From: Proteocatella sphenisci DSM 23131
GTDB lineage: Bacteria > Bacillota > Clostridia > Peptostreptococcales > Filifactoraceae
Direction: 5' to 3'
Length of the DNA: 64,000 nucleotides
NCBI RefSeq assembly: GCF_000423525.1
Contig: NZ_AUID01000009.1
Coordinates: 1 to 64,000 of the forward strand
Shown here: positions 1-61,686 of the stretch, piece by piece
Layout of the letters: every line of letters starts with the position of its first letter
Numbering within the stretch: position 1 is the first letter of the stretch
Notes under the pieces: generated by a model
What the model was told of the DNA's origin: nothing
Database searches by the model: none
The model's input: the letters and a program-made list of their open reading frames with translations, nothing else
Position numbers and translations under genes: made by a program

Positions 1-86
1 TCTGATATATGCGGACCATAGTCTGCCTTGTCTTCGCCCCCAATTCCTGCAAAAAACTGATTTATATAGTGTATAGCTTTTTTCAT
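1..86 (-). CDS. grdH: Betaine reductase component B subunit GrdH, N-terminal fragment (cut by window edge)
   Basis: Only the first 28 codons are present. They read MKKAIHYINQFFAGIGGEDK and onward, the conserved N-terminus of the selenoprotein subunit of glycine/sarcosine/betaine reductase component B (GrdB, GrdF, GrdH). In the family this subunit carries a UGA-encoded selenocysteine far downstream, outside this window. Its ribosome-binding site AAGGAGGATA at 91-100 overlaps the stop codon of the preceding grdI, so the two are translationally linked. Assignment to the betaine type rests on the BCCT transporter and the GrdI-like partner upstream; a sarcosine-type GrdF cannot be excluded from 28 residues. 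Confidence 0.8.
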   Translation of the reverse strand, partial: MKKAIHYINQFFAGIGGEDKADYGPHIS

Positions 87-98
87 CTCATATCCTCC

Positions 99-1424
99 TT
101 AGAATTCCCTCATTGTCTTGGTTGACCATCCTGCTACCTGGTCTCCACAGAACATGGCATTATTTTCCATAATTACAGAACCATCTTCTCTTACTGAAGA
201 TCCTAAAACTTCATCATCTGCCCATCCGCCTGAAAGTCCGTCTCTGGCAAGTGACTCAAGCTCACCTATTACAGCTGACGCTGGAGCAAGCTCTATTATC
301 TGAGATACGTTGCCTGTCGAAACAAGTGCGTCTGCTTTTTTATCAAGAGTAACAAGTGGCTGCGACGCACCATCTCTTCCTGTACACTCATTGCTTATTC
401 CCACTACTTTTACACCTGCATCTTCAAGCGCTACTATGCATCTTATATAGTCGGCATCGGGATTACCGTATCCTTCTTCTGTAACTATGGCCCCATCTGC
501 ACCCAGAGATTTTGCAATCTGTGCTACAAATATTGCTGCTCTTTCTTTTTGCTCAAGTGAAACGTTTAGATTTGACATTATCACTCCCAAAAAGTTTATC
601 GTCTTTCCATGCTCAGTGTAAAGCTCTCTTATAGTCGGGAAATTTTGAAGGTCATATGTTGACCATTTGGATGAAGCCGGCATAAAGCTTCCTGAAATTA
701 TTGCTCCGTCCAGAACTTCTGATGGACTCATGAAGGTTGGTACATATTTGTTCATATCCCATCCATAAATCATTGCATTGTAGCCAAGTTCTTCCATCTG
801 TGACTGAGGTTGCATAACCAGGACTACTGAAGGAAGCTTGTTTATTTCTTCACTTCTTTTTGTTACAGGATCCAGCTCATAAACGTCTATGGCTTCTGGC
901 TCAAGGTCCTTTACTGCCTGTCCTATAAATTCTGCAAGTTTGTGGGCGGCCCATCTAAGTGCTTTATTCTTTTTCTGCTGCTCGTATCTTTCAAATTCCT
1001 CATCAGTATCTGCAACCATACATATATTTATGAGTTTTGAGTAATATGTATATTTGGCACCAGCATTCATATCTATCATTCCATCTCCAAAGCTTCCCCA
1101 GTGCTTTCCAACGGCCAGAACGCTGCAGCCCTTAAGTGCATGAACCCTTCCTTGTCCAGTTGGCATAACTTCACCTGTTATCCCAGGAAAAAGTGTCCTT
1201 CCATCAGGTCTTATCCTTGGCTCTACGGCCTCTTTTACAGGAACTATCCTTACATCATCACCAGGTCTTGCTATTACAATATCTACATCTGTTATATGAT
1301 TCTCTTCTTCTTTTATAAAAGCCAGCGCAGCTTCTTTATCTATACTAAGAATTCCATCTTTGTATGATGTCTCATTTCCAAGTCTGACATCTTTTACATA
1401 AAAATTACCTATTTCCAGTTTCAT
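99..1424 (-). CDS. grdI: Betaine (or sarcosine) reductase component B, GrdI/GrdG-type subunit
   Basis: The 441-residue protein belongs to the GrdE/GrdG/GrdI family, the substrate-binding partner of the selenoprotein subunit in amine reductases; the betaine enzyme converts betaine to acetyl phosphate plus trimethylamine using selenoprotein A and component C. The glycine-type GrdE is known to self-cleave at an internal Cys near residue 242 to make a pyruvoyl group. Here the equivalent stretch (about residues 240-256, DGAIISGSFMPASSKW) has no Cys, which fits an unprocessed betaine or sarcosine subunit. A conserved NECTGRDGASQ block has Cys347. The gene sits between a BCCT betaine carrier and grdH in one operon; the carrier decides for betaine over sarcosine. 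Confidence 0.82.
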   Translation of the reverse strand: MKLEIGNFYVKDVRLGNETSYKDGILSIDKEAALAFIKEEENHITDVDIVIARPGDDVRIVPVKEAVEPRIRPDGRTLFPGITGEVMPTGQGRVHALKGCSVLAVGKHWGSFGDGMIDMNAGAKYTYYSKLINICMVADTDEEFERYEQQKKNKALRWAAHKLAEFIGQAVKDLEPEAIDVYELDPVTKRSEEINKLPSVVLVMQPQSQMEELGYNAMIYGWDMNKYVPTFMSPSEVLDGAIISGSFMPASSKWSTYDLQNFPTIRELYTEHGKTINFLGVIMSNLNVSLEQKERAAIFVAQIAKSLGADGAIVTEEGYGNPDADYIRCIVALEDAGVKVVGISNECTGRDGASQPLVTLDKKADALVSTGNVSQIIELAPASAVIGELESLARDGLSGGWADDEVLGSSVREDGSVIMENNAMFCGDQVAGWSTKTMREF

Positions 1425-19534: not shown

Positions 19535-20026
19535 CTATCTTCTTATCCCAACTACCTTTGCCTTTGCAACTCCATCGGGTACATTTATATTTGTCTTATC
19601 TCCAACTTTTTTTCCAAGAAGCGCACTGCCTACAGGTGATTCATTTGAAATTCTATCCTCTGAAGGATCTGCCTCAGCTGAACCTACTATTGTATATTCT
19701 TCAGTTTCTACAGTCTTGTCCCCAGGATACTTGATTTCAATTTTAACTACTGAACCTACAGTAACCTTCTCATGATCTATAGTTGACTCATCTATTATCT
19801 TGGCAGCGCCAAGCTGATTCTCAAGTTTGAAAATTCTTTCTTCCATCTGAGCCTGCTCATTTTTGGCTTCATCATATTCAGCATTTTCTGAAATATCTCC
19901 AAAAGATATAGCAACCTTTATTCTCTCAGCAACCTCTGCTCTCCTTACAGCTTTAAGATATTCCAGTTCTTCTACTATCCTGTCATATCCTTCCTGAGTT
20001 AAGAGTATTTCCTTATTCTTATCCAT
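19535..20026 (-). CDS. greA: Transcription elongation factor GreA
   Basis: 163 residues. An N-terminal antiparallel coiled coil (LTQEGYDRIVEELEYLKAVRRAEV through EQAQMEERIFKLENQL) with the acidic tip DISENAEYDEAK, and a C-terminal FKBP-like domain (VGSVVKI, YTIVGSAEADPSEDRISNESPVGSALLG). It rescues backtracked RNA polymerase. It lies 70 bp before lysS and 65 bp after dusB on the same strand. Confidence 0.97.
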   Translation of the reverse strand: MDKNKEILLTQEGYDRIVEELEYLKAVRRAEVAERIKVAISFGDISENAEYDEAKNEQAQMEERIFKLENQLGAAKIIDESTIDHEKVTVGSVVKIEIKYPGDKTVETEEYTIVGSAEADPSEDRISNESPVGSALLGKKVGDKTNINVPDGVAKAKVVGIRR

Positions 20027-40962: not shown

Positions 40963-42870
40963 TTAAATTCTATCCTTTGATTCTTTAACCAGCTTGTCCA
41001 CGAATTCCTGAATGCTTAGTGAACCCAGTTCTCCACCGTCTCTTGATCTTACAGATACATTTCCTTCGTTAACTTCTTTTTCTCCAACAATTATCATATA
41101 TGGTACTTTTTCCATCTGAGCTTCTCTTATCTTGTAACCTATTTTTTCTGCTCTGTCATCGATTGTAACTCTTATTCCTGCATCAAAAAGTTTCTTGTAA
41201 AGATCGTCTGCATAGTCCATGAACTTGTCAGATATAGGAAGAATCTTTGCCTGAACTGGAGAAAGCCATACAGGGAATTTTCCTGCGTATTGCTCTATAA
41301 GGATTCCTATAAATCTTTCTATACTTCCAAATGCAACTCTGTGAATCATTATAGGTCTGTGCTTTTCGCCGTCTTTTCCTGTGTAAGTCAGGTCAAATCG
41401 CTGTGGAAGCTGATAGTCAAGCTGGATTGTTCCACACTGCCAAGTTCTTCCTATACAGTCTCTAAGATGGAAATCTATCTTAGGCCCGTAAAATGCTCCG
41501 TCTCCTTCGTTGAGTCTATAGTCTAATCCAAGCTCCTCAAGAGCGGCTTTTAGTGCTGCTTCTGCCTCATCCCACATTGATATTTCACCAAGGAAGCTCT
41601 CTGGTCTTGTAGAAAGTTCTACGTGATAAGAGAATCCAAACTGCTTGTAAACCTTGTCTATCAGCTGCGCAACACCCTTTATTTCATCCTTGATCTGTTC
41701 AGGAAGCATGAATATATGTGCATCGTCTTGCGTAAATGCTCTTACTCTCATAAGTCCATGAAGGGCTCCTGAAAGCTCATGTCTGTGAACCCTTCCAACT
41801 TCTCCCATTCTTATAGGAAAATCTCTGTAAGACCTCATTTTTGTCTTGTAGGCAAGCATGCCTCCAGGACAGTTCATAGGCTTGATGGCAAAATCCTCAT
41901 CATCTATCTGTACTGTATACATATTTTCCTTGTAGTGGAACCAGTGACCAGAAGTTTCCCAAAGTTTTCTGTTAAGTATGATTGGTGTTTCAATCTCAAC
42001 ATAACCAGCCGCTCTGTGTACTTCTCTCCAGTATGTCATAAGTTCATTTTTGAGTATTGTTCCATTTGGAAGGAAGAATGGGAATCCAGGTCCCTCTTCT
42101 AATATTGTAAACAGTTCCAGTTCTTTTCCAAGTTTTCTGTGGTCTCTTTTTTTAGCTTCTTCTATCATTTCAAGATATTCATCAAGAAATTTCTTTTTCT
42201 CAAAAGATATACCATAGACTCTTTGAAGCATCTTATTGGACTGGTCTGCTCTCCAATATGCACCTGCAACACTTGTAAGTTTTAATGCCTTTACTTTTTT
42301 AGTATTTGAAAGGTGTGGCCCTGCACAAAGATCTACAAAGTCTCCCTGTCTGTAAAAGGAAAGTCTCTGCCCTTCTTTTGCAAGATCCTTTATAAGCTCT
42401 ATCTTATAGTCTTCATTTCTTTCTTTCATCAGCGCTATGGCCTCATCTTCATCAAGCTCAAATCTTTCAATATCAAGCTCTGATTTCACTATTTTTTTCA
42501 TTTCAGCTTCAATTTTTTCAAGATCTTCAGGAGTAAGTCTGTAGTCCAGGTCTATATCATAATAGAAGCCATTTTCTACAGCTGGACCTGTTCCAAGCTT
42601 TGTGTCCGGAAACAGATTTTTGATTGCATGGGCCATTATATGAGTGGAAGTATGCCAGAAAATATCTTTTCCATCTGCATCATCAAATTTTAAAAAGTCA
42701 ATCTTTCCGTCTTCTTCTATGAGATGATTGGTTTCTACTACCTCTCCGTTAAATTTTGCACCTACTACCGCTCTTCCAAGTCCTTCACTTATTGAATTAG
42801 CAACATCCAATACGCTTACCTTTGATTCAAACTCTTTTATTGAGCCATCTTTTAACTGTACTTTAATCAT
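40963..42870 (-). CDS. thrS: Threonyl-tRNA synthetase
   Basis: 635 residues. TGS domain (MIKVQLKDGSIKEFES), HxxxH editing domain (TSTHIMAHAIKNLFPD, GPAVENGFYYDID, LCAGPHLSNT), class II core with FAIKPMNCPGGMLAYK, RMGEVGRVHRHELSGALHGL, and C-terminal anticodon domain (LPISDKFMDYADDLYKKL). A GTG four codons upstream is in frame but overlaps the GGAGG site, so ATG at 42870 is the start. Controlled by the T-box leader just upstream. Confidence 0.98.
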   Translation of the reverse strand: MIKVQLKDGSIKEFESKVSVLDVANSISEGLGRAVVGAKFNGEVVETNHLIEEDGKIDFLKFDDADGKDIFWHTSTHIMAHAIKNLFPDTKLGTGPAVENGFYYDIDLDYRLTPEDLEKIEAEMKKIVKSELDIERFELDEDEAIALMKERNEDYKIELIKDLAKEGQRLSFYRQGDFVDLCAGPHLSNTKKVKALKLTSVAGAYWRADQSNKMLQRVYGISFEKKKFLDEYLEMIEEAKKRDHRKLGKELELFTILEEGPGFPFFLPNGTILKNELMTYWREVHRAAGYVEIETPIILNRKLWETSGHWFHYKENMYTVQIDDEDFAIKPMNCPGGMLAYKTKMRSYRDFPIRMGEVGRVHRHELSGALHGLMRVRAFTQDDAHIFMLPEQIKDEIKGVAQLIDKVYKQFGFSYHVELSTRPESFLGEISMWDEAEAALKAALEELGLDYRLNEGDGAFYGPKIDFHLRDCIGRTWQCGTIQLDYQLPQRFDLTYTGKDGEKHRPIMIHRVAFGSIERFIGILIEQYAGKFPVWLSPVQAKILPISDKFMDYADDLYKKLFDAGIRVTIDDRAEKIGYKIREAQMEKVPYMIIVGEKEVNEGNVSVRSRDGGELGSLSIQEFVDKLVKESKDRI

Positions 42871-42899
42871 ATTATCCTCCACTTTTAAATTATGGTATT

Positions 42900-43090
42900 A
42901 AAAAATCCCACGAGCATATAAGCTCATGGGACGTGTATACGTGGTTCCACCCAAGTTTGTTCTCTTATGGCTGTATCGGGCCTCCCGCTCATTACTAATG
43001 AGTGCTCTAAGGTGGTTTTCATAGTTATATTTACCAGAAACTCTCAGCTAAATGTTTCTTCTCTGTAGATAACAAATCACTATTACTCGT
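42900..43090 (-). ncRNA. T-box riboswitch of thrS
   Basis: The minus strand leader contains the T-box core TGGGTGGAACCACG (42940-42953), a terminator stem CCCATGAGC/GCTCGTGGG with a T-run (about 42901-42931), an upstream GCTGAGAGTTTC segment, and a likely specifier ACC (Thr) in the ATGAAAACCACC loop near 43014-43025. Uncharged tRNA-Thr would stabilise the antiterminator and switch thrS on. Confidence 0.93.
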
Positions 43091-43160
43091 CTTTTCAACG
43101 CATTATATTATATATCTTAACAACAATTATATTATCAAGAAATATTTTTGTCAACAGTAA

Positions 43161-45883: not shown

Positions 45884-46396
45884 TTATTTAATCATTTCTT
45901 TTAGTTTATCAAATCTGACATCAATATTATCGTCTGACATACTGCATTTGCACTGGACTTTATTGAAGTTACTTCCACATACTGGACACATACCCAAGCA
46001 ATCCTCTTTACAAAGTAGTTTATAAGGTATCTGATTCAAAATCTCAATAAAGCAGAGATCCATCAAATCTACATGATTCTCAGAAATAACGTAAGTATCA
46101 TATTCTTCTGAAAAAATCTCATTTCCTGATACCAAATATACAATTACGTCCTCACTGACTGATACGTCTGCATCGTCTAAACATCTTGCACACTGGCCCT
46201 TAACCTTAGCTGATAGCTTCGCATTTAACACCAATCGATCATCAGTTTTAACTATAATTCCATTTAAAACAACCGGTGAAGAAAATCTGAGATCATGTTT
46301 ATTGTTATTCGTCTGATCCATATCAAAGCTCACATTTACTGCCAGAGTGCTTCTCTCGCCGGACAAAATTCCACTTAAATTCATCATGTTCATCAC
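45884..46396 (-). CDS. yceD: YceD/DUF177 family protein
   Basis: 170 residues. DUF177 proteins are conserved before rpmF and are implicated in 23S rRNA accumulation. LNAKLSAKVKGQCARCLDDADV and the C-terminal Cys cluster CKEDCLGMCPVCGSNFNKVQCKC suggest zinc binding. Several Met codons open the frame (MMNMMNLSG); the exact start is uncertain by a few residues. Co-transcribed with rpmF. Confidence 0.9.
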   Translation of the reverse strand: MMNMMNLSGILSGERSTLAVNVSFDMDQTNNNKHDLRFSSPVVLNGIIVKTDDRLVLNAKLSAKVKGQCARCLDDADVSVSEDVIVYLVSGNEIFSEEYDTYVISENHVDLMDLCFIEILNQIPYKLLCKEDCLGMCPVCGSNFNKVQCKCSMSDDNIDVRFDKLKEMIK

Positions 46397-46462
46397 CTCT
46401 TATTTATCACAAACATTATACATAAATAAAAAATATTTGTCAAGTTTAATTGCCTTACAAGT

Positions 46463-46494
46463 TAAAATCAATAAGGTCGCCCTTATTGATTTTA
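46463..46494 (-). terminator. Terminator after ackA
   Basis: Perfect 14-bp stem TAAAATCAATAAGG (46463-46476)/CCTTATTGATTTTA (46481-46494), 4-nt loop, with the T-rich arm toward yceD. Confidence 0.85.
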
Positions 46495-46514
46495 AGCATT
46501 TTATGATATTTGAA

Positions 46515-47711
46515 CTATTTTACTAATTCTAAAGTATCTCTTGCAATCATAACTTCTTCGTTAGTTGGAATACAAAGTACTTTTACTGCTGAATCAGCTG
46601 CAGATATAACTTTTTCTTTTCCTCTTACTTTGTTTTCAACTTTATCTATTGATATTCCAAGTCTCTCAAGTCCGCCACAAATTTCTTCTCTTGCGTCAAT
46701 TGAGTTTTCTCCAAGTCCAGCAGTGAATACTATCACATCTACTCCGCCCATTTCAGCCATGTAAGATCCGATGTACTTCTTAACTCTCTTGTAGTATGTC
46801 TCAAGCGCTATAGCTGCTCTTTCGTTGCCTTCAGAAGCTGCATTTTCGATATCTCTGAAGTCTGAACTTACGCCCGACATACCAAAGACACCTGATTTTT
46901 TGTTCATTACGTCATTTATTCCGTCTGCATCAAGATTAAGCTTTTTCATAAGGAATGTTACTATTGCAGGATCCATGTCCCCACATCTAGTTCCCATTAT
47001 AAGGCCCTCAAGCGGAGTAAATCCCATTGATGTATCAACTACTTCTCCACCGTCAACAGCAGCTACAGAAGCTCCGTTTCCCAGGTGACAAGTTATTATT
47101 TTTAAATCCTTTATATCTTTTCCAAGCATTTCAGCCGCTCTGTAGCTCACGTACTTGTGTGAAGTACCGTGGAATCCGTATCTTCTTACTCCAAAATCAG
47201 TATAGTACTCGTAAGGGATTCCGTACAGGTATGATGATTTTGGCATTGTCTGATGGAACGCTGTATCAAATACCGCAACCATTGGTATAGTTGGCAGTAT
47301 TTCTCTGCATGCATTTATTCCTATTAAGTTTGGCGGGTTGTGAAGTGGAGCAAGCTCTATACATTCTTCGAGTGCTTTTACAACTTCATCAGTAATAATT
47401 ACTGATGATGCAAATTTTTCTCCTGCATGAACAACTCTGTGTCCAACAGCATTGATTTCATCCATACTCTTGATTGCGCCATATTCTTTGTTAACAAGTG
47501 CATCCATTACATGCTTAAGTGCATCTTTGTGATCTTGCATTGGCTCTTCAATTATTTCTTTGTCTCTTCCTGGTGTCTCATGCTTTAGAACGGAACCATC
47601 TATTCCTATTCTTTCAACAAGACCTATAGCCAGTACAGACTCGTCTGTCATATCAATCAGCTGATATTTTAGTGATGAACTTCCGCAGTTAATTACTAAT
47701 ACTTTCAGCAA
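46515..47711 (-). CDS. ackA: Acetate kinase
   Basis: 398 residues. Makes ATP and acetate from acetyl phosphate, the product of betaine/glycine reductase. [68 protein letters not shown] and [14 protein letters not shown] are the kinase motifs. Only a TTG (47709-47711) fits the start, with GGAGGG before it; no ATG is near. No pta gene is adjacent. The gene lies directly after tRNA-Sec on the same strand. Confidence 0.96.
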
Positions 47712-47773
47712 TTTCCCTCCATCTTATATATGTAACACAACTAAATAATCATGTTATTATACTTTATAAAAAT

Positions 47774-47870
47774 TGGCGGGAATATGTGGGAATCGAACCC
47801 ACCCAAGAAGCTACTAACCCCTCGAACTGGTGTTGAAGACCAGCGGGCACACCAGCACCCATCTACTCCC
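47774..47870 (-). tRNA. selC: Selenocysteine tRNA (anticodon UCA)
   Basis: 97 nt with encoded CCA. The anticodon loop CTTCAAC gives UCA, flanked by a CTGGT/ACCAG stem. The D stem has 6 pairs with a 4-nt loop, the variable arm is long, and the T arm is GTGGG-TTCGATT-CCCAC; the acceptor stem is extended, with its eighth pair mismatched. These are features of tRNA-Sec rather than a UGA suppressor or tRNA-Ser. It decodes UGA with SelB in the grd selenoproteins. selA, selB and selD are not in the window. Confidence 0.95.
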
Positions 47871-47881
47871 AATCGCTATTA

Positions 47882-47910
47882 ATCTTAACATAGATTTTTT
47901 GTCATTTCAA
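47882..47910 (-). promoter_or_regulatory. Promoter of selC
   Basis: Minus strand TTGAAA (47905-47910), 17-bp spacer, TAAGAT (47882-47887), 12 bp before the tRNA 5' end. Confidence 0.7.
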
Positions 47911-47980: not shown

Positions 47981-48865
47981 TTACAGTTTCATGGGGTCAT
48001 ATTCTTCTACAAACCCTTCTCCAAGGACCTCTCTTACTTCAGCTATGGTAATAAAAGCATTTGGATCTATTTCCATTATTACCTGTCTTAGCAGTGGAAG
48101 TTCTTTTTGAGAAAGCACTACAAATATCATTTCTTTTTCCAATTTTGAGTACATGCCTCTCGCCTTGAGAGCCGTAGTACCTCTTCCAACAGTATTCATT
48201 ATGGACTCAGCAATTTCATCACTTCGCTCAGAAACTATAAATGCCGCCTTTGCAGAGCTTCCACCTTCGAGTACAAGTGTAACCATTTTGGTTGTAACTA
48301 TGACAGATATTATTGCATACATGGTATTTATAATTCCAAATACAAACATTCCTCCAACTATTATAATTGCGTCTATTAAGAGCATTACTTTTTGGATAGG
48401 AAGGTCCGGCTTTATAAATTTGAATATAGCTGCAAGCATATCTGTGCCACCTGTCGTAGCTCCTGCCCTTATAACGAGTCCTACCCCGATTCCTACCAGC
48501 ACCCCTCCAAAAAGACTTGAAAGTAATAGATCGTCTATATGGGCAAAGGGATTGGATAAAATTTCACACCCCCACAAGGATATAGAAAGAAATATCACCG
48601 CATAAAGCGATTTTTTTGCAAAAGCAAAACCCCTCTGTTTTATACTAACCGCAAACAAAGGTATGTTAAGAATAGCATTGGTAAGCCATATTGGAACCCC
48701 ATTTTCAAAGAGTCCAAAAGATATTTTCTCAACAATTATTGCTATCCCCGTAAGCCCACCCGTAACAAGACCTGGCGGTGATAAGAACCAGGTTATTCCA
48801 AAAGCCAGAATAATAGATCCTGCTAATATCATTATAATTTCACTTAATTTTAAAGTACTTTTCAT
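47981..48865 (-). CDS. YitT family membrane protein (DUF161/DUF2179)
   Basis: 294 residues. About five or six membrane helices (residues 8-180: GSIILAFGITWFLSPPGLVTGGLTGIAIIVEK, GVLVGIGVGLVIRAGATTGGTDMLAAIFK) followed by the cytoplasmic DUF2179 domain (AAFIVSERSDEIAESIMNTVGRGTTALKARGMYS). A common Firmicutes family of unknown transport role. No operon partner is certain; the nitroreductase lies 20 bp upstream on the same strand. Confidence 0.88.
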   Translation of the reverse strand: MKSTLKLSEIIMILAGSIILAFGITWFLSPPGLVTGGLTGIAIIVEKISFGLFENGVPIWLTNAILNIPLFAVSIKQRGFAFAKKSLYAVIFLSISLWGCEILSNPFAHIDDLLLSSLFGGVLVGIGVGLVIRAGATTGGTDMLAAIFKFIKPDLPIQKVMLLIDAIIIVGGMFVFGIINTMYAIISVIVTTKMVTLVLEGGSSAKAAFIVSERSDEIAESIMNTVGRGTTALKARGMYSKLEKEMIFVVLSQKELPLLRQVIMEIDPNAFITIAEVREVLGEGFVEEYDPMKL

Positions 48866-52948: not shown

Positions 52949-55900
52949 TTACAGAAGCTGGTTATTTTTCATAAATTCTTTGAATGTCTTTCTTTCGAAA
53001 CTTGTATTTGTAGCTGTTTCAACAAGCTTTGAGACCTTGGCAGGTTTTAGAACAGCCTCTGATACTGGATAACTCCAGAACTTATCTGCTTCAAGTTTTG
53101 CAAGTCCTTTGTATGCTGGATTAAAGTTTCCAATAGCTTCTTGAATATCCTCTATTTTGTCAAATCCAAAGTCTGGCTCAAGAACCCTTGCTATATCCAT
53201 AGCTATCTTCCAGTTGGATCCTGCTATGCCATTATTAAGGGCTTTTCTTGATCTTTGGATTCTTCTTTCTGCATTTGTATATGATCCTTCAGATTCTGCA
53301 AAGCTCGCTCCAGGAAGTACAATATCAGCTATCTTTGCCATGTCTGACATATTGATATCTTGAACTACTACAAGCTCGAGTTTTGAAAGATCTACATCAC
53401 AGATGTTCTCTCCAAATGATATTATCCCTTTTACAGTTCCATTTTCTATTTTTTCAAGAAGCTCTGCCTTATCTGTACAGATTCCAAGATCAACTAGTCC
53501 CTGGCTGTTGGCATTTTTCTTCATCTGGATTATTCCAGCTCTTGGTCTGTTTACATGACCTGCCATAACTGCAGTATTTACAAGAGAAAGTGCACCGTCA
53601 TAGCTAAGTTCTCCCTGATTGTATACTGTCATAGCTGTTTTTGCTCCTGTGTACATATCCGCGATTTTTTGTGCTTCTTCGCTTATCTCAATTCCTGCAA
53701 GTGATGCTTTGTGTTCATCTGTTGCGATTTTTGAGTTTTTAGCTACTGCTTTTTCTATCTGAAGAAGGAAATCTGTAGAGTCTGTATGAACAGAGATTGT
53801 CGCTATTTCATCAAGAAGCGTATGTTTGTCATTGATTACAACAAGTTTTGCACCATCAAGAGCAGCCTGTCTTATCTTGATTCCAATTATAGTGTTGTTT
53901 ATCATGATGTCTGATCCTGCAACTATTATCATCTCTGTTGACAGAAGTTCTTCGTAGCTTGATGTTGAAGCGTCTGTTCCAAGTACATCTGCAAGTGCCG
54001 ATTTTTCAGCATTCATACTGTATACCTTTGAAGCTCCGAAAAGTTTTTCTCCAAGAGTCTTTACTGCAAATATATCTTCGTTTGTGTACTTGTCTGAAAC
54101 AAGGATTGCAAGGCTCTGTGGTCCATTAAGACTTACAAGGTTCTGCGCCTTTTTAGCTGCTTCTACAAGTGCACTTTCAAGAGTCGCTTCTTCAAGTTCT
54201 TTGTCTCTTCTGAGAAGGGCTGATTTTATTCTGTCATAGCTGTGAGCCACGTCATATCCAAATCTTCCTTTTGCACAAAGTCTTCCGTCGTCAACCTTGC
54301 TTGAATTGTCAGACTCTATTCTCATTATCATTTCGTTTCTTGTGTTTACTTTTATGTTACAGCCTACGCTGCAGTTTGAGCATACTGTATTTGTTATTTC
54401 AGCAATAACTGGAACTGGCTTTTTAATCTTCATTCTTTCCTGAAGTGCTCCCGTTGGACAAACGCTTACACATTGTCCACATGAAATACATCCTGTTTCA
54501 TTCAAGGGCATCTCCACAGCTGGTTTAACTATTGTGTCAAATCCTCTGTGTACAAGTCCAAGCGCGCTTACGCCCATAACTTCTTCACATGTTCTTACAC
54601 AAAGTCCGCAAAGTATACACTTGTCAGGGTTTCTGTCTATGAATGGATGTGAGTTGTCCTCTTTACGTTTGTGCATTTCTCCTTCAAACTTTTCAGGTTT
54701 GATGTCATATTCATTTGAATATTTTAGGAGTTTGCACTCATAAAGATCCATACATCCGCACTCAAGACATCTTGCCCCTTCTTCCATAGCCTGCTCATCA
54801 GTGTAATTAGTAACTACTTCTTCAAAGTTGTTTCTTCTTACATCTGGATTCACATGATCTCTGTGGGGTCTGTAAGTTATTTCTCTGTCCTCAAAATCAT
54901 CGGCGCTCATGCCTTCGATTTCTGAGTAGAAAGGTTTTTTGTATGCAACCATGTCGCCGTCCATGTATGTCATTATAACCTGGGCTGCTCTTTTTGCATC
55001 TCCTATTGCTGCTATCGCTATATCTGCACCTTTGTTAGTTGCGTCTCCTATTGCAAATACTCCCTCAACATTTGTTCTAAATGTTTTTTCGTCTGCTGCA
55101 ACAGTTCCTCTTCTTGTAAGTTCTATCTCTTCAAATCCCTTTGGATTAACTATCTGTCCAATAGCGCTTATTACGCAGTCAACTACAAGCGTCTGCGTCA
55201 CTCCTTCTTTTGGAATCGGCGATCTTCTTCCACTTGCATCTGGCTCTCCAAGCTCCATTACCTGAAGTGTCATCTCAAGCTGGCCGTTTTCCAGCTTTTT
55301 GATTTCAATCGGGTTTACAAGCTCTTTAAATATAACGCCTTCTTCTTCTGCTTCTACAATCTCTATTTCTTCTGCAGGCATCTGATCTTTAGTTCTTCTG
55401 TATACGTTGTATACTTCTTTTGCTCCAAGTCTCACTGAAGTTCTGCAGGCGTCCATAGCCGTGTTTCCACCACCTACTATTGCCACTTTTTCTCCGGCTT
55501 TAAAAGGCTTGTTGGTAACATAGTTTTCAAGGTATTCTATACCACCAATTACGCCTTCTGCTTCTTCGCCCTTGCAGCCAAGTTTTGTACTGCTCCATGC
55601 TCCAATTGCTAAAAGAGTTGCATCAGCTGTGTCGTTGATATGCTCAAAACTTATGTCTCTTCCTACTTTTGTATTAGGAACAAGCTTTGCGCCCATCTTC
55701 TCTATTACATCTATCTCTTTTTGAAGAATTGATTTTGGAAGTCTGTACTGGGGTATTCCATATCTCAGCATTCCACCTAATTTGGGCATCTGATCGTATA
55801 TTGTTACGTCATGGCCTTCCATAAGCAGGAAGTACGCTGCTGAAACTCCACCAGGTCCTCCACCTATTATATTTACTTTTTTCCCTGTTTTCGCCTTAAG

Positions 55901-56461
55901 CTCTGGAATATACATCTCTTCATTTGCATGATCATGGTCTGCTGCAAAGTATTTTAAATTTGCTATTGCTATCGGCTCATCTATAAGCCCTCTTCTACAG
56001 GCAGTCTCACATGGATGAGGACACACTCTTCCTATACTTGCAGGAAGTGGCAGTTTATCTTTGATTACTTTATTAGCTTCATCAAACTGTCCATTTGCTA
56101 TTAGTCCTACATATGCCTGGCAATCTGTATTTCCAGGACAGGCAATAACGCATGGTCCCTGACAGTCTCCTGTGTGATCTGACATAAGAAGCTCAAGCGC
56201 TACTTTTCTGGCTTCTATTGTTCTTTTTGTATTAGTTTTTATTATCATGTTATTTGAAGCATCTGTTGCACATGATCTCATAAGCTTTGGCATTCCTACA
56301 GCTTCAACTACGCAAAGTCCGCATGATCCATAAGCTTTGATTCTCTCATCATGGCAAAGTGTTGGTATTTCTATATTGTTTTCTCTTGCGATATCGAGAA
56401 TTGTCTGTCCACTGTAGCCAGTAACTTCTATTCCATCTATATTAAGTCTGATTTTTGACAT
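52949..56461 (-). CDS. stnC: Stn-type transhydrogenase large subunit: fused 2Fe-2S, GltD/NfnB-like, ferredoxin and degenerate molybdopterin domains
   Basis: 1170 residues. In order: [2Fe-2S] NuoG-like domain with C36, C47, C50, C64; a GltD-type Cys-rich linker (C100, C104, C108, C114, C147, C151, C155); an FAD/NADP module (IIGGGPGGVSAAYF at 198, IVGGGNTAMDACR at 328), as in NfnB; Cys-rich ARCLECGC (565-576); a 2[4Fe-4S] ferredoxin (615-669); a [4Fe-4S] site CSNCSVGC with C729; then a molybdopterin-oxidoreductase-like region without a Cys or Sec metal ligand and without a C-terminal cofactor domain. This layout matches StnC of the Sporomusa-type electron-bifurcating transhydrogenase. It follows stnB by 14 bp. 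Confidence 0.85.
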   Translation of the reverse strand: MSKIRLNIDGIEVTGYSGQTILDIARENNIEIPTLCHDERIKAYGSCGLCVVEAVGMPKLMRSCATDASNNMIIKTNTKRTIEARKVALELLMSDHTGDCQGPCVIACPGNTDCQAYVGLIANGQFDEANKVIKDKLPLPASIGRVCPHPCETACRRGLIDEPIAIANLKYFAADHDHANEEMYIPELKAKTGKKVNIIGGGPGGVSAAYFLLMEGHDVTIYDQMPKLGGMLRYGIPQYRLPKSILQKEIDVIEKMGAKLVPNTKVGRDISFEHINDTADATLLAIGAWSSTKLGCKGEEAEGVIGGIEYLENYVTNKPFKAGEKVAIVGGGNTAMDACRTSVRLGAKEVYNVYRRTKDQMPAEEIEIVEAEEEGVIFKELVNPIEIKKLENGQLEMTLQVMELGEPDASGRRSPIPKEGVTQTLVVDCVISAIGQIVNPKGFEEIELTRRGTVAADEKTFRTNVEGVFAIGDATNKGADIAIAAIGDAKRAAQVIMTYMDGDMVAYKKPFYSEIEGMSADDFEDREITYRPHRDHVNPDVRRNNFEEVVTNYTDEQAMEEGARCLECGCMDLYECKLLKYSNEYDIKPEKFEGEMHKRKEDNSHPFIDRNPDKCILCGLCVRTCEEVMGVSALGLVHRGFDTIVKPAVEMPLNETGCISCGQCVSVCPTGALQERMKIKKPVPVIAEITNTVCSNCSVGCNIKVNTRNEMIMRIESDNSSKVDDGRLCAKGRFGYDVAHSYDRIKSALLRRDKELEEATLESALVEAAKKAQNLVSLNGPQSLAILVSDKYTNEDIFAVKTLGEKLFGASKVYSMNAEKSALADVLGTDASTSSYEELLSTEMIIVAGSDIMINNTIIGIKIRQAALDGAKLVVINDKHTLLDEIATISVHTDSTDFLLQIEKAVAKNSKIATDEHKASLAGIEISEEAQKIADMYTGAKTAMTVYNQGELSYDGALSLVNTAVMAGHVNRPRAGIIQMKKNANSQGLVDLGICTDKAELLEKIENGTVKGIISFGENICDVDLSKLELVVVQDINMSDMAKIADIVLPGASFAESEGSYTNAERRIQRSRKALNNGIAGSNWKIAMDIARVLEPDFGFDKIEDIQEAIGNFNPAYKGLAKLEADKFWSYPVSEAVLKPAKVSKLVETATNTSFERKTFKEFMKNNQLL

Positions 56462-58751: not shown

Positions 58752-58968
58752 TCTCCTTCATAAGTTTTTAATTTGATTTTAACAGAAAATTTACAAATCT
58801 CTCTACAGTCTATATGTTAACATTTATATAAAAATATGTAAATAATTTTTAATTTTAATTTTTGCTGAAGTAATAAGTTTCTATTATATAAGTTATACTT
58901 AATTTTAGGATGATTTGTTTGGTATTTTGGTTTATAATTGTAATATAGTATTATTAAGGAGAAAAAAA

Positions 58969-60090
58969 ATGAAACCACTTAGCCTCTATATCCACATTCC
59001 TTTTTGCAAACGCAAATGTTCTTATTGCGACTTTGTTTCTGTTGCAAAACCATTTTCCTTTCAGGAAACCTACATCGATGCACTTATAAATGAAATGCGT
59101 CTTCAAGCTGCAATTTCAGCTTCACATAAAATAGATACCATATATATAGGGGGCGGTACCCCCAGCTTTTTAGAAGAGTCTCTCATAGAAAAACTTTTAT
59201 CTGCCCTTTCTGATAACTTTTGTACAGATTTTGTCAGGGAATATACATTTGAGTGCAATCCCGAATCTCTTAGTCCCCAGAAATTGGAAATACTGAAAAA
59301 GCATGGGGTTAACAGACTGAGTTTTGGCCTTCAGACCACTGACAGTTCAGAACTCGAGCTTTTGCGAAGGTCACATGACTTTGAAACTTTTATTGGTTCA
59401 TTCAAACTTGGCAGAGACCATGGCTTTAAAAACATAAGCGTAGACCTCATGTTCGCACTTCCCTCCCAGACTATGAGTTCTCTTTCAAAGAGCCTTGAGG
59501 ATATAATTTCTATATCACCAGAGCACATTTCTTGTTACTCTCTCATAATTGAAGAAGGCACCCTTATGAACAAGTGGGTAAATGAAGGAAAAGTCACTCC
59601 AGTCGATGATGACACCTATGTTGAGATGTACAGATATATCGTATCTCATCTAGAAAATCATGGATACCATCAGTATGAAATCTCAAATTTTTGCAAAGAC
59701 GGATATGAATCACTCCACAACAGCGCTTACTGGCTAAGACAGAATTACCTTGGACTTGGCGTTGCCGCTCATTCGATGATTGACAATAAAAGATTCTCTA
59801 ATACAGATAACATCACCAATTATATAAATTGCCTTGATGGCGGAAATCTTTCTGTTGAAGAAGGTTCTTTAGAGCTGCTTTCTTCCAATGACATCATAAA
59901 TGAAACAATCTTTCTCGGGCTCAGGATGAACAGAGGAATAAAACTTAAGGAGCTTCCGCTTGAGGCCCTTGATAAAGTGGATGGCCTTGTCAAAAACAAG
60001 CTTGTTGAAATTGAAGAAGACAGGATAAGACTTACCCAGAAAGGACGCGAAATCAGTAATACCATTTTTGTTGAACTTATGACCGACTGA
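58969..60090 (+). CDS. hemW: Radical SAM heme chaperone HemW
   Basis: 373 residues. Start KPLSLYIHIPFCKRKCSYCDF with the CxxxCxxC cluster site; TIYIGGGTPSFLEE, FECNPESL, NRLSFGLQTTDSSEL, SVDLMFALPSQTM and the HemN C-terminal domain (HQYEISNFCKDGYES, NYLGLGVAAHS). This is HemW rather than coproporphyrinogen dehydrogenase by length and motif. ATG at 58969 follows AAGGAG. Upstream an in-frame ATG at 58915 has no ribosome site. Confidence 0.94.
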   Translation: MKPLSLYIHIPFCKRKCSYCDFVSVAKPFSFQETYIDALINEMRLQAAISASHKIDTIYIGGGTPSFLEESLIEKLLSALSDNFCTDFVREYTFECNPESLSPQKLEILKKHGVNRLSFGLQTTDSSELELLRRSHDFETFIGSFKLGRDHGFKNISVDLMFALPSQTMSSLSKSLEDIISISPEHISCYSLIIEEGTLMNKWVNEGKVTPVDDDTYVEMYRYIVSHLENHGYHQYEISNFCKDGYESLHNSAYWLRQNYLGLGVAAHSMIDNKRFSNTDNITNYINCLDGGNLSVEEGSLELLSSNDIINETIFLGLRMNRGIKLKELPLEALDKVDGLVKNKLVEIEEDRIRLTQKGREISNTIFVELMTD

Positions 60091-60129: not shown

Positions 60130-61686
60130 ATGAAAAAAAATAATTACAAAGAAGCTGCAGGCATATATTCAAGCAAGCTTTCTATTCTTTACAAAAGTAT
60201 AATAACAGGTTTTCTTGCAGGGGCTGTAGTAATACTTTACAGACTTATTCTTATAAAGGCAGAACATCTCTCCTTTGAGATGTATGCTTATGTGAGAGAA
60301 CATATTATCTATATTCCCCTTGCACTGGCTTTACTGGGTTGTTTTGGATACATTACTGGAATTTTGGTGTCAAAATACAAACTCATAAACGGAAGCGGAA
60401 TCCCCCAGGTAAAAGGAATAATTATGGGCTATTTTGAAGACAGCTGGTTTAGCACCCTGGTTTCTAAATTCATTGGAGGAGTCTTGTCCATATTTGCCGG
60501 ACTGTCTCTTGGAAGAGAAGGCCCTTCTATTCAGCTTGGCGCATGTGTTGCACAAGGGGTTGGAAACAAACTTGCCAAGTCACGTACAGAAAAAAAGATA
60601 CTTATAGCCAGCGGTGCAAGCGCCGGGCTCTCCGCTGCATTTAATGCCCCACTTGCTGGAACTATATTTGCCATGGAAGAGATATATAAGTATTTTTCTC
60701 CTGTCATACTTCTTTCTGCAATGGCTTCTGCAATGACTGCCGATTTTCTTTCAAAAATGGTATTTGGCCTGGATCCAGTCTTTAGTTTTAATGTAACTTC
60801 AGTAATCCCTCTTTCTGGATACTGGATGCTCCTTATACTAGGCATCGCCCTTGGATTCATGGGCGCTTTTTATAATAAAATGCTCATCTTTTCTCAGCAT
60901 CTTTACAAAAAAATCCCACTTCTAAGCGCAAAAACAAAACTACTCATGCCATTTTTACTTGCTGGAATACTTGGAGTAGTTTTTCCCCTGGCTCTTGGTG
61001 GAGGTCATGTAATAGTTGAGCAGCTAAATCCTTCTACAGGGATCACTCTGCTGGTTCTTATCTTATGTATAAAATTTGTATTTTCAATGATCAGCTTTGG
61101 CTCAGGAGCACCCGGGGGTATATTTTTCCCGCTTCTGATAATGGGAGCTCTGATCGGATGTATATTTGGAAATATTGCTATATCTTATGCCGGATTTAAT
61201 TCAGAGCTCTTTTACAACTTTATAATACTGGCCATGGCCGGTTATTTTACTGCAATAGTAAGAGCTCCTATAACTGGGATAGTTCTTCTGGTGGAAATGA
61301 CAGGTTCTTTTACTCATCTTCTTTCACTTACCGTAGTTTGTATAGTAGCCTATGTAGTGGCGGATCTTTTGGAGAGCCCCCCTGTATATGAATCACTTCT
61401 TGAAAGCCAGATTGCTAAAAATTCTTCCCCTCTTGATAAAAAAGACGACGGGAGAAAAATAACCATGGAAATGGTAGTACATTATGGTTCATCCGCCGAT
61501 GGAAAAACAATCAAAGAACTCGAATTCCCATCAAATTGCCTGCTCATAGCCATTAGACGGCGCGGCGGAGATATCATACCAAACGGCAATACAATTGTAA
61601 TGCCAGAGGATTCTCTCGTTTTTATAACTGATCAATCCAAAGAGTCATGCCTTAGAGAACTAATGGAAAAAACTATGACCGCTTAA
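60130..61686 (+). CDS. CLC-family chloride/proton antiporter with C-terminal TrkA-C (RCK) domain
   Basis: 518 residues. Selectivity-filter motifs GSGIPQVKG, GREGPSIQLGACVAQG (gating Glu), and GSGAPGGIFFPLLIMG. The internal proton Glu position FNAPLAGTIFAMEEIYKYF matches the Glu-Glu of the E. coli exchanger, favouring a Cl-/H+ antiporter over a channel. After PPVYESLLES a TrkA-C domain follows (about 440-510: GKTIKELEFPSNCLLIAIRRRGG, GNTIVMPEDSLVFITD), a ligand-binding regulatory module. It lies 40 bp after hemW on the same strand. Confidence 0.92.
   Translation: MKKNNYKEAAGIYSSKLSILYKSIITGFLAGAVVILYRLILIKAEHLSFEMYAYVREHIIYIPLALALLGCFGYITGILVSKYKLINGSGIPQVKGIIMGYFEDSWFSTLVSKFIGGVLSIFAGLSLGREGPSIQLGACVAQGVGNKLAKSRTEKKILIASGASAGLSAAFNAPLAGTIFAMEEIYKYFSPVILLSAMASAMTADFLSKMVFGLDPVFSFNVTSVIPLSGYWMLLILGIALGFMGAFYNKMLIFSQHLYKKIPLLSAKTKLLMPFLLAGILGVVFPLALGGGHVIVEQLNPSTGITLLVLILCIKFVFSMISFGSGAPGGIFFPLLIMGALIGCIFGNIAISYAGFNSELFYNFIILAMAGYFTAIVRAPITGIVLLVEMTGSFTHLLSLTVVCIVAYVVADLLESPPVYESLLESQIAKNSSPLDKKDDGRKITMEMVVHYGSSADGKTIKELEFPSNCLLIAIRRRGGDIIPNGNTIVMPEDSLVFITDQSKESCLRELMEKTMTA

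Follow-up and report, generated by a model that had tools for sequence, protein, structure and literature searches.

In the tufB operon of Escherichia coli, tRNA genes are co-transcribed with a protein gene located downstream, and a selDABC cluster has reportedly been found in Eubacterium acidaminophilum. For a subset of genomes, PMC5330540 places the gene for selenocysteine tRNA (selC) near selA and selB as part of a selABC operon, with few exceptions. More unusual positions, in which selC is nested in or overlaps selB, are described in PMC13188914 and PMC8124441, and PMC10950094 reports that transcription starting at the tRNA promoter of E. coli glyV-X-Y reads through into datA past a leaky terminator or attenuator. 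Open-access literature searches for selC together with ackA (acetate kinase), and for selDABC, pointed to no publication on a linkage of selC to ackA, as judged from search summaries. Here we analyze such a linkage in Proteocatella sphenisci DSM 23131.

The selC gene and its junction with ackA

The genome of P. sphenisci (2.41 Mb in 45 contigs, 98.7% complete) was examined with a focus on the window, i.e., a 64,000-nucleotide stretch of contig C8. The only tRNA gene recognized there by ARAGORN is a tRNA-Sec gene with the anticodon TCA on the minus strand (Table 1). Residues 47778 to 47870 match the Rfam family RF01852 with 70 bits, well above the gathering score of 47, and the gene possesses the UCA anticodon, the long variable arm, and the encoded CCA end that define a tRNA-Sec. 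Its predicted fold is tRNA-like in shape, with a z score of −3.0 and only 1 of 200 shuffled sequences being equally stable. In a genome-wide search, selC was the single match to RF01852 above the gathering score; the runner-up reached 41 bits, and matches at or below this value were read as ordinary tRNAs. The tRNA-Sec gene is thus real, and as well formed as the first-pass annotation, prepared from the sequence letters of the window, had described it.

Table 1. Features surrounding the selC-ackA junction of P. sphenisci (positions refer to the window)
Feature	Position	Strand	Evidence or remark
YitT-like membrane protein gene upstream of selC	47981..48865	-	weak match
Promoter-like site of selC: TTGAAA, 17-nt spacer, TG-extended TAAGAT	47882..47910	-	9 of 12 match; score p 0.02
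selC, tRNA-Sec, UCA anticodon, encoded CCA	47774..47870	-	ARAGORN; Rfam RF01852 70 bits; fold
T-run, one base past CCA	47768..47772	-	possible weak terminator or 3′-processing site
selC-ackA gap, 62 nt	47712..47773	-	hairpin terminator absent; promoter score not above chance
Ribosome-binding site GGAGGG in the gap	47715-47720	-	
ackA, acetate kinase, TTG start	46515..47711	-	TIGR00016 549 bits
15-bp A+T-rich hairpin after ackA	46462..46495		terminator-like on the plus strand only
Promoter match TTGACA-17-TATAAT (12 of 12) ahead of the gene downstream of ackA	46415..46443	-	
Next gene after ackA, kept beside ackA in relatives	45884..46396	-	no NCBIfam match; presumably DUF177

The gene downstream of selC encodes an acetate kinase, its product exceeding the curated cut-off of TIGR00016 (293 bits) by a wide margin. 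The TTG start of ackA lies 62 nt from the 3′ end of the tRNA on the same strand, which bears out the initial description of selC as directly preceding ackA at this distance; with a shared strand, a short gap, and no hairpin terminator in between, the two genes have the layout of a tRNA-mRNA unit. The accompanying statement that no terminator separates them holds for hairpin terminators, but the CCA end and one further A are followed by five T's, on which that description was silent and which may terminate part of the transcripts. Beyond ackA follow a strong hairpin and the perfect promoter match; the latter would begin a separate unit, leaving selC and ackA as a unit of two. The YitT-like gene upstream of selC is replaced by other genes in relatives. 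Elsewhere in the window, a T-box leader (positions 42924 to 43107, minus strand; RF00230, 103 bits) precedes a gene for a 639-residue protein (40963 to 42882) that we take to resemble threonyl-tRNA synthetase.

The selC-ackA junction in related genomes

Among 198 genomes surveyed across the order, tRNA-Sec was recovered in 152 (E values up to 2e-11) and AckA in 182 (E values up to 1e-130), with the positions of both genes being listed for 124 genomes. In seven of the 124, ackA immediately follows selC in the same orientation. Six of these linked genomes are found among the nine selC-bearing genomes of the family (G000, which is the genome studied here, G002, G005, G006, G008, and G009), these six being related, so that the counts are not independent; the seventh, G143, belongs to another family. 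The three family genomes possessing selC without the junction are G003, G004, and G007, and tRNA-Sec above the threshold was absent from G010 and from G001, the latter being 88% complete and split into 820 contigs. In a first set of 30 selC loci, ackA followed immediately in five, and none of 80 ackA loci from outside the family carried a tRNA-Sec, in a set from which the nearest relatives are possibly missing. The junction is also present in Acetoanaerobium noterae (Filifactoraceae, Peptostreptococcales), with a gene order and flanks matching those of G005.

The region upstream of selC is variable. An unbroken selD-selA-selB-selC-ackA array exists in G008 and G143. In G005 and A. noterae, selB and selC are separated by a 1.77-kb insertion, which in G005 harbors two genes; selC is preceded by other genes in G006 and G009, and the contig of G002 breaks off 118 nt ahead of selC. 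Among the six family genomes, the upstream neighbors include selB, two genes after selB, a YbaK-like gene with others, and the YitT-like gene, whereas the junction is constant. The selDAB genes are located elsewhere in G000, G001, G002, and G009, and their flanks are not the same in the genus of P. sphenisci as in G002/G009. A SelB tree separates the groups G000/G001, G002/G006/G009, and G005/G008 with supports of 95/99, a grouping consistent with vertical descent.

Since two of the seven linked genomes retain the complete array, the locus of P. sphenisci resembles the remainder of a sel operon from which selDAB was lost and in which the junction of selC with ackA was kept. The simplest history, in which the order of events is our reconstruction, would start from an ancestor of these genera that carried a selDABC-ackA array, with selDAB being removed later while selC stayed beside ackA. 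The AckA tree is poorly resolved, and the junction in G143 may be ancestral or independent. The gene had initially been termed isolated, which is accurate insofar as neither selA, selB, nor selD is nearby; it misses that relatives (G008 and G143) carry selDAB directly upstream of selC. The early interpretation was correct in its core, its frame of an isolated selC now giving way to that of a sel operon that was broken ahead of selC and retained the selC-ackA junction.

Further observations were made in the course of the survey. In eight genomes of family f11, ackA and selC are on one strand, with ackA about 38 to 46 kb upstream, and in five genomes of family f4 ackA lies 6 to 10 kb upstream of selC; the two genes thus occur in a common chromosomal region in more genomes than those with the direct junction. 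The tRNA-Sec of G003 and G007 (loci L135 and L139) has 95 nt and a clearly different sequence, and the corresponding SelB proteins form a long branch far from the other SelBs of the family; in this genus, the Sec machinery may have a different origin or evolve rapidly. A protein encoded at positions 52949 to 56461 of the window is a fusion-like polypeptide of 1,170 residues with matches to the glutamate synthase small subunit, NuoG, and part of the formate dehydrogenase alpha subunit, and its gene adjoins NuoF- and NuoE-like genes; a similar protein is encoded upstream of selC in G006 and G009.

Promoter-like and terminator-like signals

Promoters were scored by the best site in a restricted range of positions, with extra credit for a TG preceding the −10 element and dinucleotide-shuffled sequences for comparison. 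The promoter-like site of selC ends 11 nt before the tRNA, and the score in this region reached p values of 0.05 or lower in all seven linked genomes (0.02 here, exactly 0.05 in G006), each of which has a TG-extended site; among unlinked selC genes, 10 of 37 passed. A simple promoter scan also finds the selC site, with the regional total of 8 matches against 9.3 in shuffled sequences being a chance number; because such matches are no commoner than in shuffles, the case for the promoter rests on its position and recurrence. On these grounds, the promoter originally assigned to selC is probably genuine. Before ackA, none of the seven linked genomes passed (p values of 0.09 to 0.99). As the score finds sites at only 10 of the 37 unlinked selC genes and is therefore insensitive, this result is weak evidence against a promoter of ackA.

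A hairpin followed by T's was found after selC in 27 of 36 unlinked loci versus one of the seven linked loci, namely that of G143; in the six linked family genomes it was absent throughout. Fisher's test against the unlinked loci gave p values of 0.001 (0/6) and 0.005 (1/7), with relatedness being ignored. The lack of a hairpin terminator is not specific to linkage, since it is shared by G003 and G007, two of the three unlinked family selC genes. A T-run of five or more residues, no further than one base from CCA, occurs in five of the seven linked loci and in none of the 36 unlinked ones; it comprises seven T's in G002, G006, G008, and G009 and is missing in G005 and G143. This element could act as a weak terminator or mark a site at which the 3′ end is processed.

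The genes, their order and conservation, and the promoter-like and terminator patterns are read directly from the sequences. They lead us to propose, with a probability of roughly 0.6, that selC and ackA would form one tRNA-mRNA transcription unit. RNA polymerase would start at the TG-extended promoter about 11 nt before selC and transcribe the tRNA; the T-run after CCA would stop perhaps part of the transcripts, and the remainder would continue into ackA, which has a ribosome-binding site of its own and no recognizable promoter. Processing would then excise the tRNA from the joint transcript, leaving the ackA mRNA. The junction itself would derive from the selD-selA-selB-selC-ackA array that is intact in G008 and G143, with selDAB having been relocated in the lineage of P. 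sphenisci. Read-through into ackA had been suggested at the outset; it is allowed by the anatomy of the locus and backed by the conservation of the junction, although read-through as such is something that we infer. The model fits G143 poorly, where a hairpin terminator is present and the gap extends to 242 nt.

The main competing explanation is that the two genes are neighbors by inheritance only, the selC transcript ending at the T-run with the folded tRNA serving as the hairpin, and ackA being transcribed from an unrecognized promoter in the gap or inside selC. The T-run could indeed end transcription, and its confinement to linked loci speaks for this explanation, as do a bare TATAAT within the gap of this genome and the p value of 0.09 for the ackA gap of G005. 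In usual terminators, however, the stem is directly adjacent to the T-run, whereas the stem of the tRNA lies four or five bases away. Moreover, T-runs also occur 3′ of CCA within tRNA clusters of this genome (tRNA-Ser at locus L010 and tRNA-Pro at L011), with the next tRNA following after a few bases, so that such a run need not stop transcription. The gap of just 46 to 48 nt in three genomes and the persistence of the junction through several exchanges of the upstream gene argue in the same direction. We grant inheritance without joint transcription a sizable but minor chance of being correct.

Plausible metabolic connection of AckA to selenoprotein reductases

Acetate kinase converts acetyl phosphate into ATP. 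Acetyl phosphate is the compound made by glycine reductase, as described in PMC3091704. Joint expression of selC and ackA would make metabolic sense, because AckA gains ATP from acetyl phosphate formed by the Sec-dependent glycine, betaine, or sarcosine reductase. GrdA is encoded in all seven linked genomes and in none of the four family genomes without the junction that were searched (G003, G004, G007, and G010), a contrast that is confounded with descent and includes G004 with a completeness of only 79%. The initial proposal that AckA uses the product of selenoprotein reductases is plausible in this light. Glycine reductase does not require the junction, since GrdA is present in 114 of the 198 genomes of the order and the junction in seven. 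Nor does acetyl phosphate need to come from this reductase in P. sphenisci, as both Pta and PduL occur in its genome. Specifically, Pta scored above the cut-off in G000, G003, G004, G007, G010, and G143 but failed to do so in G002, G005, G006, G008, and G009, and PduL is present in G000, G002, G003, G005, G006, G007, and G008; most of these genomes thus have other routes to acetyl phosphate. The idea that the linked genomes have no other source was rejected, given Pta in G000 and G143 and PduL in five of the seven (G000, G002, G005, G006, and G008).

Contig C8 opens with genes for component B of glycine/sarcosine/betaine reductase and a betaine-type transporter. It begins inside a GrdB-like gene (window positions 1 to 1424; match 6 to 83), as does contig C7, and such contig starts reflect assembly breaks at repeated reductase genes.

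A strong form of the transcription-unit model can be formulated, in which the ackA gene of these Stickland fermenters would be promoterless and expressed only by read-through from the promoter of the tRNA-Sec gene. The T-run would determine how much transcription continues, and AckA would thereby be dosed together with the capacity for making the selenoprotein reductase that supplies its acetyl phosphate; this version appears doubtful. Still less probable is that the tRNA-Sec in the 5′ part regulates ackA, either through its processing or Sec-charging state altering the ackA output or through the T-run acting as an attenuator. The conserved T-run next to CCA and the metabolic tie of AckA to Sec enzymes would suit such control, yet the T-run is missing in G005 and G143, and any regulatory purpose of the junction is speculative.

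Selenocysteine decoding in P. sphenisci

The genome contains a complete selD-selA-selB cluster, including a SelB scoring 388 bits (cut-off 242); selB, whose absence the first-pass annotation had named as what would speak against Sec use, is thus present. The cluster is located on contig C4, at least about 84 kb from selC as computed from contig positions, in agreement with the early statement that selC is far from selA, selB, and selD; selC adjoins selA and selB in G008 and G143 and not here, where they lie on different contigs. The RF01852 search of the genome found no tRNA-Sec beside the selDAB cluster. In-frame UGA codons are present in selD (close to the start), in a downstream peroxiredoxin gene, in grdA (one TGA, with GrdA on contig C12 reading through CFVU), and in grdB on the same contig (TSTUGTCTRCG), the genes named being those retrieved by targeted searches. 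The full selDAB cluster and these four genes with in-frame UGA give good support to Sec decoding, and the recoding of UGA anticipated by the first-pass annotation can be considered probable. SelB and UGA-containing Sec genes thus accompany the tRNA-Sec in this genome, and that selC is a relic in a cell not using Sec, for which its distance from selAB might be cited, is hardly tenable in view of the complete selD-selA-selB set, the in-frame UGA codons in grdA, grdB, selD, and the peroxiredoxin gene, and the well-formed tRNA.

The predicted RNA fold 3′ of the UGA is a clear hairpin in selD and a weak one in the peroxiredoxin gene; the evidence for SECIS elements is accordingly uneven. A single scan of the window, in which reading frames were extended across TGA, revealed no convincing selenoprotein gene, so that the warning of UGA-containing genes being prone to mis-annotation applies elsewhere in the genome. 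The one long TGA-continued case, which joins 58915 to 60090 with the neighboring 60130 to 61686, was rejected, as the two parts belong to different families.

A 21.7-kb plasmid of Terrisporobacter petrolearius (NZ_CP154621.1; locus L197) carries selD, selA, selB, a tRNA-Sec gene (19802 to 19899), prdA, prdB, prdC, and prdD, and thus combines the Sec-decoding genes with those of a Sec enzyme, proline reductase, in portable form. Such a plasmid has already been described for Terrisporobacter in PMC10564238.

Comparison with known systems

If selC and ackA form one unit, a tRNA for genetic code expansion and an energy-conserving enzyme would share a promoter in amino-acid-fermenting anaerobes, with the tRNA as a constant 5′ segment of a metabolic mRNA, and the locus would offer a simple system for studying tRNA processing versus mRNA production from one transcript. 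The recurrence of the pairing in several related amino-acid fermenters suggests that both genes are expressed from a single transcript, which would tie an energy-yielding enzyme to the capacity for building the selenium enzymes that feed it. It also indicates that selC can stay when the rest of the sel operon moves, perhaps since the downstream gene depends on the selC promoter.

The arrangement is a variation on known tRNA-mRNA units and selABC operons. It involves the same machinery genes as bacterial selABC or selDABC operons, selD-selA-selB-selC being contiguous in G008 and G143, whereas in P. sphenisci selDAB is remote and selC is joined to ackA. The selC genes nested in or overlapping selB likewise occupy an unusual position that is proposed to couple expression, but their partner is selB and the genes overlap, while the partner here is ackA. 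As with glyV-X-Y and datA, read-through from a tRNA promoter would have a downstream effect, on the selC side by our proposal; there the downstream element is a DNA site, here it is a coding gene. Like the tufB operon of E. coli, the locus has the tRNA first and a coding gene next with no hairpin terminator between them; unlike that operon, the locus, whose co-transcription is a proposal, combines tRNA-Sec with a fermentation enzyme in place of a translation factor.
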